From: Nitrospirota bacterium
Lineage (GTDB): Bacteria > Nitrospirota > Nitrospiria > Nitrospirales > Nitrospiraceae
Reading direction: 5' to 3'
Length of the DNA: 37,318 nucleotides
Assembly (NCBI GenBank): GCA_013388555.1
Contig: JACAFD010000125.1
Span: 1 to 37,318, forward strand
Positions within the stretch are counted from its first letter, which is position 1, and every line of letters starts with the position of its first letter. This document shows, piece by piece, positions 13,891-20,286 of this stretch. A program made the translations under genes and the position numbers. The notes under the pieces are model-generated. The model was not told the origin of the DNA and did not search any database. It saw nothing but the letters and a program-made list of their open reading frames with translations.

Positions 13891-15162
13891 ATGCCGGCCG
13901 AAAACAGTTTCCAGCACGATGTAATGTCTCGAAAGAATCCTGGCGGGCGGATCACCGTTCGCGAGGTCACCCCGCTTGCCCTATCAAACTCGTCCTCCGG
14001 GCAAGACGCCATGGCCACGCTCGGCATACGCCTCTCGCAAACCGGTGTTCGCGTGATCGTCTTGCTGCACGGTTCCATCATGGGAACCGACGTCTTTGGG
14101 GTGCAAAGGTTGGATGAGCTGGGCGGGCTCAAACGCGGCTACTCACGAGGCGTGGCAGGACTCGATGCCTTACTGGCCCTCATGCGCGAAAATGATGATG
14201 GCTTTTCACCGCTGCCCAACGGGATGAAGCCTCCCCTCCCAAATGATGACTCCACCAAGAGGCTGCTTGATGAACAGATCGGGGATGCAGGCAATTTCAC
14301 GAATGCCTATGTGGAACTCATGAGACAATCGCTCAACCGAAACCTGGATCGTCCGATCCATTGCATTCGTGAGCTCTGGTCCTCTGAACACCATCACCTG
14401 GGCCGTGCCTTGGCGGCGGTCTCTATGCTGGGACGCCTTCGCGACTGGTGCGAGGTCCACGGGCTGGGCCAAGGAGATCGGATTCTCATACAGGCTCACG
14501 GGCAGGCCGGGTTAGTCCTCGCCCTCGTTTCGAACCTCTTATGCGTGGCATCGACCAGCAGCCGGACAAGGTTGCTCGATCTCTTGTCTGCTTTTGCCTC
14601 GCAGGTCAATCGGCCGGACATCACTTCAACGATTCGCCGCGTCACTCCATTCCTCTCAAATGGAACCCTCCTCAATGGAGCGGTGCTGGACGTCATTACG
14701 TTGGGAACACCGGTACGCTACGGGTGGGATCCGTCTGGGTTAGGCATGCTGCTGCACATCGTCAACCATCGAAATCTTCGGACCGATGGAAAAGTATGGC
14801 TCTCGAAAATGGAATTGCCCCAGATCACAATGGAGATGCCGATTGCCTGGGGCGGTGACTACATTCAACAATTGGCCGTGGCCGGCAGCGATGCCTTGCC
14901 GACGACCGATGCAGCCAAGGCAACGAATAAAGACCTATGGGAGATCGTGGAGCCATTTGATGGGTTTGAACGATGGCTTGAATGTGCCCGCCGCGCCGTC
15001 CGAATCCCCAGCGAGGGGCTGGGGATTCTTGCCGACTACAAGGATTCCACCGGGTCCACGAATGTGCGCGACCATTACTTCGGGCACGCGGTCTATACTC
15101 GCCTCAGCTCCTTGCTCTTCAACACCACAGAAATCGTGCAGGCTCTCTGCCACGTCCCGTAA
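13891..15162 (+). CDS. Alpha/beta-hydrolase-fold (lipase-like) protein lacking the Ser nucleophile
   Basis: A 423-residue protein with the outline of a lipase/esterase: an early strand and oxyanion-type loop (VIVLLHGSIMG, ~55-65), the nucleophile-elbow strand (ILIQAHGQAG, ~198-207), a later LGTPVRYG element (~275) and a C-terminal His in RDHYFGHAV. At the elbow the usual G-H-S-x-G-G reads A-H-G204-Q-A-G, so the catalytic Ser is replaced by Gly. It has no signal peptide. It is either an inactive relative or uses other chemistry. The start is uncertain: ATG at 13891 or 13924, neither with a good Shine-Dalgarno. Convergent with the next gene. Confidence 0.65.
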   Translation: MPAENSFQHDVMSRKNPGGRITVREVTPLALSNSSSGQDAMATLGIRLSQTGVRVIVLLHGSIMGTDVFGVQRLDELGGLKRGYSRGVAGLDALLALMRENDDGFSPLPNGMKPPLPNDDSTKRLLDEQIGDAGNFTNAYVELMRQSLNRNLDRPIHCIRELWSSEHHHLGRALAAVSMLGRLRDWCEVHGLGQGDRILIQAHGQAGLVLALVSNLLCVASTSSRTRLLDLLSAFASQVNRPDITSTIRRVTPFLSNGTLLNGAVLDVITLGTPVRYGWDPSGLGMLLHIVNHRNLRTDGKVWLSKMELPQITMEMPIAWGGDYIQQLAVAGSDALPTTDAAKATNKDLWEIVEPFDGFERWLECARRAVRIPSEGLGILADYKDSTGSTNVRDHYFGHAVYTRLSSLLFNTTEIVQALCHVP

Positions 15163-15186
15163 TACTGTGCTTTCCACCTTGCACCT

Positions 15187-16053
15187 TCACTCTTCTCGCA
15201 ATTGCACCGCCAGGGGTTCCCACGAAAAGATGCCGTCAAGATAGGCGTGGCCGTTCGGCGTGGTGGCGGCGAGTTCAACAGATTCGTAGACGCTGATTGT
15301 CGTACCACTGCCGGCTGAGACTGAGACTTGCATCGTGAGAGCCGCGCTCGGCGCATGCGATGCAATATCCTGATGGGTCCGCAATTGTCTTGGCGAGGCA
15401 GGAAGATTCACGAGCTGGGCTGGCGGCGCCTGGCGAAACTCGCCATCATAGGTTACCCACAGTCGCACGGCGGCCGACACATGGGCATACCACTCGTCTC
15501 CGACCGCATTAGCTTCAGCCCAATTAAACAGGGTGTTCACCCGTGACATAATGGACACCGTCGTCGGCCCCAGCGAGGCTGGAATCTGCAGCAGGGTCGT
15601 GTAGCCGGCGTGGACATACCCGAGCGTATCCCAGAGTGAAGGATTGGCCCCGACGCGCGCCTGGAGTGATTTGCTTGGCAGCACATGCTCTACGTAATGG
15701 GGATTCGCGGCAAGACGGAGATAGTGCGTGTCTTCAAGGTATTTGATCTGATCGAGCTTGCACAATGTTTCATCCCGATCGCCGAATCCGATGGTGTTCG
15801 GCGCCGAAACACTATCCGCTCCGGTAAAGATCAGCTTGCTCCAGCCGATCGGCGCAATGCAACTGGCACTCGCCAACCCGTTCAGCTTTTCCAGCACCGC
15901 CACACGGCTCTTGATATCACTGAAGACCGACTCCAGCCCTTCTTTCGTTCCACGAACCCGTTCAACCAGAAGAGTCTTTTCGAGTTTCCGTTGTTCTTCG
16001 AGTTGGCGCACAAACGAGTCTGTCTGCCGATCGAGTTCCGACACTGGTGCCAT
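15187..16053 (-). CDS. Conserved-looking protein of unknown function with N-terminal coiled coil
   Basis: A 288-residue protein I do not recognise. Residues 1-60 form a charged coiled coil (DRQTDSFVRQLEEQRKLEKT and onward). The remainder has mixed alpha/beta character with short aromatic motifs (GYVHAGYTTLLQIP, FNWAEANAVGDEWYAH, LWVTYDGEF). There is no signal peptide or membrane segment. A strong Shine-Dalgarno (AAGGGGG) lies about 4-10 bp before the ATG. It is convergent with the lipase-fold gene and lies downstream of the DNA polymerase gene on the same strand with a 160-bp gap. Whether it belongs to the polymerase cassette cannot be judged from sequence alone. Confidence 0.65.
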   Translation of the reverse strand: MAPVSELDRQTDSFVRQLEEQRKLEKTLLVERVRGTKEGLESVFSDIKSRVAVLEKLNGLASASCIAPIGWSKLIFTGADSVSAPNTIGFGDRDETLCKLDQIKYLEDTHYLRLAANPHYVEHVLPSKSLQARVGANPSLWDTLGYVHAGYTTLLQIPASLGPTTVSIMSRVNTLFNWAEANAVGDEWYAHVSAAVRLWVTYDGEFRQAPPAQLVNLPASPRQLRTHQDIASHAPSAALTMQVSVSAGSGTTISVYESVELAATTPNGHAYLDGIFSWEPLAVQLREE

Positions 16054-16213
16054 TTGATCCCCCTTTTTAGGTTATGTGATGCCCCCCTACAGCACACCGG
16101 AACCCAGGGGATTTCGCAAGATGGGTGCCATAGCTAACCCCGCATAAACAGGCTCTAGTGACCCTATGGCCGCAGGCAAGGGCCGACGACCGGGACAAGT
16201 TTGAACGCACCTG

Positions 16214-18514
16214 CTAGACATCCCATGACAGGCTAGCTTGCTTGCTATCGATCGAGTCATACACAGCCCGGTTGGTAGGATCGGTGGATTCGTTCAGTGA
16301 GGTCGCCGTCACGCCCAAGGGCATCAACAACACGAGAGCCGCCTTCAGAAGCAGGTTGTCATAAGCCGAAACATCGTAGCTCCAGGTTCCATCGATCCCC
16401 GCCACGGCCCGCACACGGTCGGAGGGACAGGCCGCATCGGCATCCGTCATGATGTAGTGAACCGTGTCCCCGGCTTGCAGTCGAACGCCCCGAGCCAGCA
16501 GTTCCTGTGCAGCAATCATGGACAAAGTCTGATGGCGATAGGCCTGAGGCTCCTTCGAGAGCGATTTCGTGATAGCCAGTTCCTCAACGGTGGCAAGACC
16601 CTCTAGGAGATGGCGCCGATAGGTACGGATGATCTCCAACGCCTGCGGAATCTGTTCACGTAACTCGGCCAGCGTTCGCCCCTCACTCAGACGATGCAAT
16701 ACCTCCGCCTGAGCCCGCTTGACGAGCAGCGGCGCATCGCTGCGGCGGATTTCGATGCCGCGGATTTTCATAGCGCCATGGTCAAACAGGCCCACAAACT
16801 GATTGGGCACCGGCATGAGCGGATTGACCCGTGACGGAAGAAACCCAATCCACTGGTAGAGTCCTTCCACACCGATCGAAAGCCCCGTCCGCTCGGTGAT
16901 CGTCTGTGCCAGGCTGTCGTAGTCTGTCCTGACCGCGCCTGGTTTGACGAGCCACAGCGAATCCACAATCGCGTGCAACAGACGATAGCCCTGCCGCTCA
17001 GCAACCTCTTTGGCCTGCAATAACAGATCACGGCTGTAGGCGGTCACGGACTCGTGTGCTTCGATCCGGCCGAACCGGGCATTCTTGTAACCCAAATAAC
17101 CGAACGAGACGACGAGTAGCCACTTGAGCGCTGTTTGCCGTTGATTGAACACTACCCTCGCCGCCGGCTGCGTTGCAGCAGCCATGAGCCGTTTGTACCG
17201 CGCGCGCTTGTCGAGCAACGGGGCCAGCGTGCGAGGCACCAATCCCTCGTGATGGCGGCAGGTGTGATGGCCAATCTCCGGGACCCGTGCAGTCGGATCA
17301 TGGCGGCAGCACCGGCAATTGACCGTCTCGGGCGAGATGTTGAAGCGCACCATAATGGAGGGATACATCGACGAGAAATCCAGTTCGCCGACCTGTTCGT
17401 GATAGCCGACGATCGGCGCGAACACCAATCCGCCCTGATCGGTGTGCAGCAACTCGAGCGTGGATTTGAAGGCTTCCGGCTCCTGTTTCCGGTAGGGAAT
17501 CAGCAGGCCGTCGCGACAAGCCGTTTCGAGCTGCATTGAGGTGATCCCCGTCCCTGTCGTCGTGCGGGCCATCTGCTGCAAATCGACCTTCGTAACACGG
17601 GCCTGCTCGATGAGTCCGGCCAGGCCCATTTCCGCCAGCGCAAAGGAATTGTGCCGATCGAGGTGTAACCGTCCCGACAGGGTGCGGGCTCCGGCATGGG
17701 ACAGGATGCGGCCATACGAAAAGTACGAATGGGGTTTCCTCGCGCCGATGGATCGATGGCGATCGCGATTGAGCGCGAGCGGCAGACGCAACTGATTCGC
17801 CATGGTCATGAGACGAGGTAGAAGATAGGAGTCGCCCCAGTCCGTCAAGAGGATGTCCGGGTCCTCTCGCACGAGCAACTGGTTGAGGCGCTGGATCACA
17901 TCAGCATCATCGCCTTCCAACAGACGCTCTTCCCCGTCCATCCGCACCACAAGCGAGCTGCACCCGCCATGATTCGGGTTGGGCGATGGATTGTCCGGCG
18001 ACAGCTCCAAAATCGTGAGCGGAGGGAACCCATAGTCCGTGTCCCAGGGCGACTCCAGCGCCTGAATCGACTGAAGCCGGCCTTCGGCGGTGATGTCAAC
18101 CTCGCAATGGGCGAGAGGAAAGAGCTCCCGGTCGTAAAAGTAGCGCTGCGGCAGCGACACATCGACGTGAAAGAACTGCGCATCGGGGCAGGAACGGATA
18201 AGTTGTTGCGTAAGGGACGAGAACTGCGCGGGAGCATGAACCGAGACTTCCAGCACCGGGATCGGGCGGAGCGCACCGAGTTCGTATCGTTCTACCTCTC
18301 TGGTACCGATACGACAGGAGGCACGGCGGAGTAGCCGGAACACCTGCTCGCGGATGGACGGTGGAGCTGCCAGATAACAGGTCGGGACAAAGGGATCGAC
18401 GGCCCGGATGCGGCGTCCATCCTCGCCGAGGAGCCAGACGACCATGCCCTCTTGCGCCGGGTATACATCAAGAAGCCATCCCTTGAGTCGAGTCGTGGGG
18501 CATGCGGGTTTCAA
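16214..18514 (-). CDS. Divergent family-B DNA polymerase
   Basis: A 766-residue protein with the order of a B-family polymerase. The N-terminal domain (LKGWLLDVYP, 10-19) is followed by a degenerate exonuclease-like region (~165-300) without the usual DxE. Motif A is DFSSMYPSI (379-387). A Cys/His-rich insertion lies at 400-422, motif B is K464-WLLVVSFGYLGYKNARFG, and motif C reads HAIVDS (514-519) in place of YGDTDS. The motif A Asp and the second motif C Asp (D518) remain; the first motif C Asp is replaced by Ile. It starts at TTG right after an in-frame stop and overlaps the preceding small gene by 47 bp. Likely a damage-response or translesion polymerase; activity is uncertain. Confidence 0.88.
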   Translation of the reverse strand: MKPACPTTRLKGWLLDVYPAQEGMVVWLLGEDGRRIRAVDPFVPTCYLAAPPSIREQVFRLLRRASCRIGTREVERYELGALRPIPVLEVSVHAPAQFSSLTQQLIRSCPDAQFFHVDVSLPQRYFYDRELFPLAHCEVDITAEGRLQSIQALESPWDTDYGFPPLTILELSPDNPSPNPNHGGCSSLVVRMDGEERLLEGDDADVIQRLNQLLVREDPDILLTDWGDSYLLPRLMTMANQLRLPLALNRDRHRSIGARKPHSYFSYGRILSHAGARTLSGRLHLDRHNSFALAEMGLAGLIEQARVTKVDLQQMARTTTGTGITSMQLETACRDGLLIPYRKQEPEAFKSTLELLHTDQGGLVFAPIVGYHEQVGELDFSSMYPSIMVRFNISPETVNCRCCRHDPTARVPEIGHHTCRHHEGLVPRTLAPLLDKRARYKRLMAAATQPAARVVFNQRQTALKWLLVVSFGYLGYKNARFGRIEAHESVTAYSRDLLLQAKEVAERQGYRLLHAIVDSLWLVKPGAVRTDYDSLAQTITERTGLSIGVEGLYQWIGFLPSRVNPLMPVPNQFVGLFDHGAMKIRGIEIRRSDAPLLVKRAQAEVLHRLSEGRTLAELREQIPQALEIIRTYRRHLLEGLATVEELAITKSLSKEPQAYRHQTLSMIAAQELLARGVRLQAGDTVHYIMTDADAACPSDRVRAVAGIDGTWSYDVSAYDNLLLKAALVLLMPLGVTATSLNESTDPTNRAVYDSIDSKQASLSWDV

Positions 18515-18758
18515 GAGTCATCACTTTCTGTTGCAATATGACGACGTGTTTCTGTTGTTCAATCAACATTGACAACAACATCACCTCGAACGGGGTCTCA
18601 CGCGCGAGATAGGCGCCGGCCGACGCATGGTGGCGGGCGGCGGCGAACAACACATCGAGCACCTGCTGATCCTCACGCCTCAACGCACGCCGGTAGCGGC
18701 TCCACGAGTCGATTTCCTGCTGGACCAATTGCGTGAATGTGGCAAGCGTGCGCCCCAT
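18468..18758 (-). CDS. Small helical protein of the LexA-RecA-like-PolB cassette
   Basis: A 96-residue protein, almost all alpha-helical (TFTQLVQQEIDSWSRYRRAL, then TPFEVMLLSMLIEQQKHVVI), with no recognised family. It lies between the RecA-like gene and the polymerase gene. It starts 2 bp after the stop of the former and overlaps the start of the latter by 47 bp, so it is surely co-translated with them. An earlier ATG at 18833 has a fair Shine-Dalgarno (GAGG) but would overlap the RecA-like gene by 73 bp, so I prefer 18758. It could be a bridging subunit between the RecA-like protein and the polymerase; this is inference from position. Confidence 0.72.
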   Translation of the reverse strand: MGRTLATFTQLVQQEIDSWSRYRRALRREDQQVLDVLFAAARHHASAGAYLARETPFEVMLLSMLIEQQKHVVILQQKVMTLETRMPHDSTQGMAS

Positions 18759-18760
18759 AT

Positions 18761-19471
18761 TTACAGCCGATTCCAGAGCAGACGCGGAATTATCCAGCGT
18801 CTGGGCTTGGGCCCTCCCTCTTCCTGTAGCCATAACTCATCCTCGGCCTCGCGCAGGTCGATCACCCGGCGCGCCTGCGCACGGAGTGCCGCCATGAATC
18901 GACTACGTCCGCCGGATTCAAGCGGCGCGAGCTGGCTCACGCAGAGCATCTGCACATTCTGCTCAACCAGATGCCGCAGAGCGTCCATCATGGCACGAAA
19001 GAGGCGCATCGCTTCAGGCTCCGGCACCAACTGGTCGTACAACGTGTCGAGCGGCCCAGCGAGAATGACGAATCGCGCATCATAGCTGCGCAACGCCGAC
19101 GGGAGGCAATCCGTAACCAACCGGACCATCTGATGACAGGTGAAGGCCCGCGAGACATGGATCTGTTGCAGCACCTGAGCCGGCGCTACCCGACTTGCCC
19201 GGGCCAGCCGCCCCACCAAAAACGGGTCGAAGACATTGGCGCCGGCCAGATACAACACCGGTTCGCCGGCCAACGCGCGATCGACCGCGGCACAGAGGCC
19301 CAGCCGATAGACGGACGACGGTCCGGACAACAACACTAATCCCTTTGGCCAATCAGTCGACACCGCGCTCCGCCGTAACGCGGCCAACAGATGGCAAGGC
19401 GCATCGATGACCACACCACTATCCTCTGTGCGAAACGGAAACTCCATCGTTTGTTGCTGTACTAGAACCAT
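18761..19471 (-). CDS. RecA-fold (ImuA-like) protein with degenerate ATP-binding motifs
   Basis: A 236-residue protein with the layout of the RecA/RadA core. A Walker-A-like strand and loop reads GLVLLSGPSSVYRLGL (44-59), where GPESSGKT is expected. Then come VLYLAGANVFDPFLVGRLAR (72-91), IHVSRAFTCHQMVRLV (104-119, like the RadA/Rad51 signature) and a Walker-B position FVILAGPLDTLYD with no Asp after the hydrophobic strand. The missing Lys-Thr and Asp suggest it no longer hydrolyses ATP. ImuA of the SOS mutasome is likewise a divergent RecA relative. The ATG at 19471 has a GAGGTG Shine-Dalgarno overlapping the repressor stop codon; a GTG at 19483 overlaps that stop as GTGA. Confidence 0.75.
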   Translation of the reverse strand: MVLVQQQTMEFPFRTEDSGVVIDAPCHLLAALRRSAVSTDWPKGLVLLSGPSSVYRLGLCAAVDRALAGEPVLYLAGANVFDPFLVGRLARASRVAPAQVLQQIHVSRAFTCHQMVRLVTDCLPSALRSYDARFVILAGPLDTLYDQLVPEPEAMRLFRAMMDALRHLVEQNVQMLCVSQLAPLESGGRSRFMAALRAQARRVIDLREAEDELWLQEEGGPKPRRWIIPRLLWNRL

Positions 19472-19479
19472 GGAACACC

Positions 19480-20025
19480 TCACGATTCGTTGAAGTGGCG
19501 TATCACACCCGCAACAATTCCCTGAATGGAAAAGTCGTCGGCTGACGACACGACGATGGGCTTCATCGCTACATTCGCCGGATGCAGTTCGATTCGGCCG
19601 TCCTTGCGGTAATACTTCTTGATCGTCGCTTCATTGTTGATTAAGGCCACCACCGTCTGCCCGTTTCGCGCGACATCCTGCTTTCGGACGACCACGAGAT
19701 CGCCGGGGAAAATGCCGTCGTCCTTCATTGATTCGCCCTTCACCCGCAACGCGAAGGTCTCTCCCCCGCCCAACAGCGGTGGCAGCACCGTGACCAGTTC
19801 GGCCTGCGTGATCGGTTCGATCGGCGCACCGGCCGCCACCATCCCGAGCATCGGAATCTGCGCCAACCCTAACTGGTCCAACGCCATCTCGACCGACAAA
19901 GGCACCTCCCATGTGCCTGCCTCATAGCGACTGATCGTCATCCGGCTCAGTTGCAGCACCTCCGCCAGCTTTGCCTGCGTGTAGCCCAACCGAACCCGTG
20001 CCTGTCTGAACTGTTTAGCCGTCAT
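19480..20025 (-). CDS. LexA/CI-like self-cleaving repressor (XRE HTH plus S24 peptidase)
   Basis: A 181-residue protein. Residues 5-38 form a Cro/CI-type helix-turn-helix (TQAKLAEVLQLSRMTISRYE), unlike the winged helix of E. coli LexA. Residues 58-175 form an S24 peptidase domain with an Ala65-Gly66 cleavage site (GMVAAGAP), a Ser99 nucleophile (VKGESMKDDG) and a general-base Lys136 (ATIKK). All elements for RecA-stimulated autocleavage are present. It heads a tightly overlapping set with the RecA-like, small and polymerase genes, which it presumably represses until DNA damage. No Shine-Dalgarno is seen, and a palindrome covers the initiation region. Confidence 0.88.
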   Translation of the reverse strand: MTAKQFRQARVRLGYTQAKLAEVLQLSRMTISRYEAGTWEVPLSVEMALDQLGLAQIPMLGMVAAGAPIEPITQAELVTVLPPLLGGGETFALRVKGESMKDDGIFPGDLVVVRKQDVARNGQTVVALINNEATIKKYYRKDGRIELHPANVAMKPIVVSSADDFSIQGIVAGVIRHFNES

Positions 20026-20042
20026 GTCACAAAATGTTACAT
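20024..20042 (-). promoter_or_regulatory. Candidate operator palindrome over the repressor start codon
   Basis: ATGTCACAAAATGTTACAT is a near-perfect 19-bp palindrome: half-sites ATGTCAC and GTTACAT match at 6 of 7 positions around a 5-bp centre. It covers the first base pairs of the repressor start codon and the place where a ribosome site would be. It is the natural candidate for autoregulation of the cassette. Binding is inferred, not shown. Confidence 0.6.
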
Positions 20043-20104
20043 GCCGAAGTAAGGACTGTCAAGTGGGGGCAACGAGTTTATAAGGAGGCGCGGCTAGATG
20101 AGCG

Positions 20105-20194: not shown

Positions 20195-20286
20195 TTGCCG
20201 CAGTAGAGCGGTCAATGTCGGACAAGCTCCTAAGTTGCAGCGCAAAAGTGGGGTGTGTTAAATGAGGAGCTTCGCGGAGGCACAGC

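Follow-up and report, generated by a model that had tools for sequence, protein, structure and literature searches.

A Putative PolB2 Mutasome Operon under Its Own LexA-Like Repressor in a Nitrospirota Bacterium

Organization of the Cassette

The window, i.e., the whole stretch of 37,318 nucleotides that was analyzed, contains at positions 16214–20025 of the minus strand four genes in the order LexA-like repressor, iRadA (of RadA fold), PPB2 (small and helical), and PolB2 (a family-B polymerase) (Table 1). An earlier note on this DNA had described a repressor, a RecA-fold protein, a small protein, and PolB, and all four open reading frames are indeed present in that order, on the minus strand; its end point, 20042, is the outer edge of the palindrome ATGTAACATTTTGTGACAT. 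The overlaps of 4 to 47 bp that it claimed stand for lexA/iRadA (4 bp, 19480–19483) and for PPB2/PolB2 (47 bp, 18468–18514), and fail for iRadA/PPB2, which are separated by a 2-bp gap once the start of PPB2 is set at 18758. The longest open reading frame of the small gene spans 18468–18833, and the start at 18833 was rejected because intact relatives begin at the internal ATG at 18758 (MGRTLATFTQ...), most likely the true start. The start codon of PolB2 is TTG and is kept in close relatives. Values of dN/dS against three relatives range from 0.08 to 0.22 for the four genes. With purifying selection on all four and an arrangement that related genomes and other phyla share, the cassette is more than a chance association.

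Table 1. Features of the cassette and of its upstream region
Feature	Coordinates	Strand	Basis
LexA-like repressor	19480..20025	-	181 aa; HTH_3 + Peptidase_S24 (Pfam)
iRadA, RadA/Rad51-fold protein	18761..19483	-	Profile match, AF2/Foldseek, and alignment
PPB2, small helical protein	18468..18758	-	96 aa, MGRT start
PolB2, family-B polymerase	16214..18514	-	766 aa, Pfam DNA_pol_B
Probable operator	20024..20042	-	Palindrome ATGTAACATTTTGTGACAT; conserved in relatives, flanks not
Sigma-70-like promoter TTGACA-17-TAACAT	20034..20062	-	Promoter scan, 10/12 matches

The Polymerase and Its Partners

The group iRadA-PPB2-PolB2 has been described as a translesion mutasome (Timinskas et al. 2025, PMC11791011). 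In that work, bacterial PolB2 operons have the order iRadA-PPB2-PolB2 only, with lexA enriched nearby; PPB2 begins with MGRT, PolB2 mostly lacks the first Asp of the DxD motif, iRadA lacks ATPase residues, and a clamp-binding motif is optional. PolB2 also corresponds to group G2 of the bacterial B-family polymerases (PMC12926913). The earlier note had presented the system as under-described, which cannot be maintained, as the mutasome, its operon, and its LexA neighborhood are already published (PMC11791011) and the polymerase is listed as G2 (PMC12926913).

PolB2 of the window matches the Pfam family DNA_pol_B (2.7e-40), and its closest solved structures are archaeal family-B polymerases; the AF2 model of the protein alone is poor (pLDDT 61). 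Motif A (ELDFSSMYPS) is intact, with D379 invariant, and the DxD of motif C is replaced by an invariant IVD (I516-V517-D518, LHAIVDSLW); motif A and the IVD motif are both invariant across 18 relatives. At the likely Exo I position one reads, by eye, TILELS instead of a DIE motif, and the 3′–5′ exonuclease is predicted to be inactivated. An invariant DR (residues 286–287, LDRHNSF) is a candidate for the D(K/R) loop motif. No QLxLF-type β-clamp motif was found at the C-terminus of either PolB2 or iRadA. A Padloc match of PolB2 to a “homing endonuclease” was set aside, the model probably containing polymerase sequence. In a tree of 73 PolB2 proteins, built by a quick method and with long branches outside the Nitrospiraceae clade, archaea are apart from bacteria and the window protein falls within a Nitrospiraceae clade (support 100).

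iRadA matches RadA by profile (2e-5), and its AF2 model (pLDDT 81) retrieves RadA, Dmc1, and Rad51 with Foldseek, the best hit being RadA (5e-11). By alignment, it has neither the Walker A lysine (GPSSVYRLG) nor the Walker B aspartate (FVILAG). The window protein has what characterizes the iRadA of PolB2 mutasomes, a RadA fold devoid of the ATPase residues and of the N-terminal domain. The MGRT start of PPB2 is identical in all 15 rows of its alignment and recurs at most of the loci from other phyla.

The Repressor

The repressor combines an N-terminal HTH_3 domain of XRE type (Pfam, 1.2e-8) with a C-terminal Peptidase_S24 domain (Pfam, 1.2e-29). It passes the cut-off of the NCBIfam lexA family (4.8e-37), with a match restricted to residues 56–178. 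Among the hallmarks of canonical LexA, the S24 domain with its Ala-Gly, Ser, and Lys is present (A65-G66, S99, and K136, conserved in relatives), and the winged-helix domain is absent, HTH_3 being found instead. The winged-helix family LexA_DNA_bind (PF01726) has no match in the repressor and, provisionally, none in the 327 contigs of the draft genome.

Among 43 loci with an S24-type regulator, a motif search assigned 13 to HTH_3 and 17 to winged-helix LexA and left 13 unclassified, which by eye resemble winged-helix variants or fragments. The HTH_3 cases are all within the Nitrospiraceae clade, of which two members (L085 and L141) retain a winged-helix LexA. In most Nitrospiraceae copies, as far as domains and motifs tell, an HTH_3-S24 repressor stands in place of the usual winged-helix LexA. 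At the level of the family, full-length canonical LexA is confined to a few genomes and HTH_3-S24 relatives are found in most, with a match in 104 of the 114 good genomes.

Promoter and Operator

ATGTAACATTTTGTGACAT is an imperfect palindrome that overlaps both the −10 hexamer and the beginning of the start codon, and the transcript of the cassette is probably leaderless or nearly so. The TTGACAG of the promoter is near-invariant in relatives. The palindrome itself is almost letter-identical in close relatives; at greater distance, the same position reads TGTAACCATTGGTTACA or TGTGACAATTTGTCACA. The pattern TGTAACATTTTGTGRC is found in 13 of the 175 family genomes, with a single copy in each, always directly upstream of the lexA gene of the cassette (the reversed pattern, used as control, gave 0 matches).

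In its own draft genome (327 contigs) the operator of the window has a single occurrence, and a search with two mismatches added only chance-level sites beyond the cassette (5 versus 3 in the control). Two sites in this genome match the relaxed pattern TGTNACN5GTNACA exactly, one at the cassette promoter and one at the promoter of a second HTH_3-S24 gene, and with up to one mismatch the pattern shows no excess over the control (44 versus 64). Provisionally for this draft, the region upstream of recA has no operator site, so the usual SOS feedback by the cassette repressor is absent. The earlier note had spoken of a possible SOS mutasome; if SOS is taken to mean a common LexA regulon, these counts do not support it. 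The repressor looks instead like a private, autorepressed switch of its own operon and not like the head of an SOS regulon.

A Paralogous Repressor

The second HTH_3-S24 gene of the genome lies in two halves at the ends of contigs C22 (L064) and C156 (L070), whose joining is inferred. Behind it come two small genes, for a 101-aa open reading frame and a CxxC protein, with no polymerase after them; repressor and small genes together occupy L064 2542–3586 and L070 1–220. Elsewhere, two small genes are usually found downstream of the paralogous repressor, and TGTAACCATTGGTTACA lies just upstream of it in 14 of the 16 readable loci. In one genome (G012, L290 1489–3523) the gene directly after the paralog, which has TGTAACCATTGGTTACA, encodes an ImuB-like protein, followed in turn by the beginning of a PHP-domain (DnaE-type) polymerase. 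The ImuB-like protein is of the Y family, matches IMS (1e-30), and by eye apparently has no first catalytic Asp. In other genomes, G007 among them, the paralogous repressor is followed by iRadA-PPB2-PolB2. With ImuB-DnaE behind one paralog and iRadA-PPB2-PolB2 behind others, similar switches precede different mutasomes, the ImuB-DnaE-type arrangement being represented by one example.

Distribution, Gain, and Loss

PolB2 has a match in 29 of the 175 family genomes. Within Nitrospiraceae, the order lexA-iRadA-PPB2-PolB2 is kept wherever the contig reaches far enough, with one or two small genes between lexA and iRadA in some relatives; the 101-aa open reading frame and the CxxC protein occur in this position in some of them. 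In 79 loci of other genomes, a set that partly repeats the same genomes, iRadA and PPB2 usually precede PolB2, often with an S24 protein ahead of them. The trio is found in other Nitrospirota, Acidobacteria, Armatimonadetes, Rokubacteria, Deltaproteobacteria, and some Bathyarchaeota; at many bacterial loci an S24 LexA lies upstream. The earlier note had named the scattering of the four genes in relatives as the observation that would speak against it; the set proved to be widely conserved as a unit.

Two genomes (G148 and G135) have an empty site, in which the two genes that follow the cassette in the window directly adjoin DUF2203, the gene upstream of it. Their alignment to the window ends at 16067 and restarts at 20234, with ∼178 bp between, and loss would explain this equally well as gain. 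The two genes in question (window 13891–16053; 423 aa on the plus strand and 288 aa on the minus strand) have no family matches and also follow the cassette in a number of other genomes. Several genomes have a broken or fragmentary PolB2, for which assembly error is possible. In a further genome (G047, L292), the repressor, the CxxC gene, and iRadA are left, PPB2 is apparently degenerate, and PolB2 has no match genome-wide; this is probably a decaying copy of the cassette. Because of its patchy presence and its breakage in several genomes, the cassette is, on comparative grounds, dispensable.

Copies of iRadA-PPB2-PolB2 also occur in two Leptospira phages, KF114878 (L232, 3695–6771) and KF114880 (L233, 3677–6945). 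Their iRadA is detected by profile at 5e-15 and 3.5e-13 and their PPB2, with MGRT, at 8e-20 and 4e-17, respectively, and their PolB has an altered motif C. A search of phages by tblastn with iRadA and PPB2 alone returned nothing; profiles detected both. A viral contig (L152) carries PPB2 and PolB2.

Discussion

The cassette is very probably a PolB2 mutasome operon of bacterial type, controlled by a dedicated LexA-like protein that cleaves itself and represses its own expression. The earlier note had proposed a translesion complex built around PolB with a self-cleaving repressor, in parallel with lexA-imuA-imuB-dnaE2, and this is well supported by the hallmarks of PolB2 mutasomes and by the paralog found in front of an ImuB-like gene and the first part of a PHP-domain polymerase. 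From the sequence, one would expect the resting HTH_3-S24 repressor to occupy the one palindrome that overlaps the −10 box, thereby preventing transcription of its own operon. By the chemistry of the LexA family, DNA damage would lead RecA filaments on single-stranded DNA to stimulate self-cleavage, in which the S99/K136 dyad cuts at A65-G66; the operon would then be expressed, and fresh repressor would reset the switch. According to published models (PMC11791011), PolB2 without proofreading would form a heteropentamer with one ATPase-dead iRadA and a trimer of PPB2, the MGRT arm of the latter pointing towards the active site. These models, together with Sulfolobus genetics (PMC11791011), suggest that the complex may extend primers past lesions, with a mutagenic outcome.

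Among known systems, the PolB2 mutasome (archaeal Dpo2 and its bacterial homologs) agrees with the cassette in the three genes, their bacterial order, the MGRT arm, the altered DxD, the inactivated exonuclease, the inactive RadA, and the LexA-type neighbor. The cassette differs from it in having an HTH_3-S24 repressor instead of a winged-helix LexA, no evident clamp motif, and a single-site operator. Like lexA-imuA-imuB-dnaE2, it unites in a single operon a repressor gene and, behind it, genes for a RecA-fold protein and an error-prone polymerase, but the polymerase is of family B, the RecA-fold protein is of RadA type and not ImuA, the small subunit is unrelated, and there is no Y-family partner. 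No Y-family ImuB was found in the cassette, and the draft genome (327 contigs) has one DinB-like Y-family gene; counts of Y-family genes as a test of replacement were set aside, since genome size, completeness, and kinship confound them. Pol V (UmuD′2C-RecA) resembles the PolB2 mutasome in a polymerase bound to a RecA/Rad51-family protein, with an arm of the small subunit near the active site (models of PMC11791011). However, the polymerase family and the small subunit differ, and the self-cleaving protein is a subunit in Pol V and only the repressor in the window. Phage CI-like HTH_3-S24 repressors share domain architecture and single-operon control with the window repressor, but the latter controls a chromosomal mutasome and its S24 domain passes the lexA cut-off of NCBIfam.

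The S24 domain scoring as lexA, in a genome without winged-helix LexA, could indicate that the repressor is the general LexA of the organism and the cassette part of a broad SOS regulon. This seems improbable, given, in the draft genome, the second HTH_3-S24 paralog (C22/C156), the presence of such repressors in most family genomes, an operator found once, relaxed exact matches only here and at the paralog promoter with 44 matches of up to one mismatch against 64 in the control, and the bare region upstream of recA. Still harder to accept is a catalytically dead PolB2 in a structural or regulatory operon, as was first thought for PolB2. The missing first aspartate of motif C and the loss of the ATPase residues of iRadA would fit it, but the Sulfolobus PolB2, with a comparable IID, is stated in PMC11791011 to be an active polymerase needed for targeted mutagenesis, and the window protein and its relatives show no variation in motif A or in the catalytic regions around it.

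One may also ask whether the cassette forms part of a mobile element or phage, is only lodged in this genome, and works for that element, as its patchy distribution, the precise empty site between close relatives, and the Leptospira phage copies might suggest. This is unlikely, since no integrase or phage gene was recognized among the cassette neighbors that were checked, the Nitrospiraceae PolB2 proteins form one clade, and loss accounts for the empty site equally well.

Measured against PMC11791011, PMC12926913, and the library searched, the HTH_3 form of the repressor, the operator with a single site, and the copies in phages may be new. A bacterial polymerase complex that is published but experimentally barely studied is now placed in Nitrospira-type bacteria, and its clean predicted operator makes induction directly testable. 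The phage copies suggest that the PolB2 mutasome also spreads on viruses. A broader view, tentative and somewhat short of an even chance, is that XRE-type self-cleaving repressors have taken the place of the canonical LexA circuit in Nitrospiraceae, each with its own operon and operator, and with PolB2 or ImuB-DnaE2 mutasomes behind the same type of switch. Damage tolerance would then consist of private circuits and not of one SOS regulon, the PolB2 mutasome traveling on phages as well. If the single-site reading is true, mutagenic repair would be separated from the rest of the damage response in these bacteria, an unusual control of mutation.
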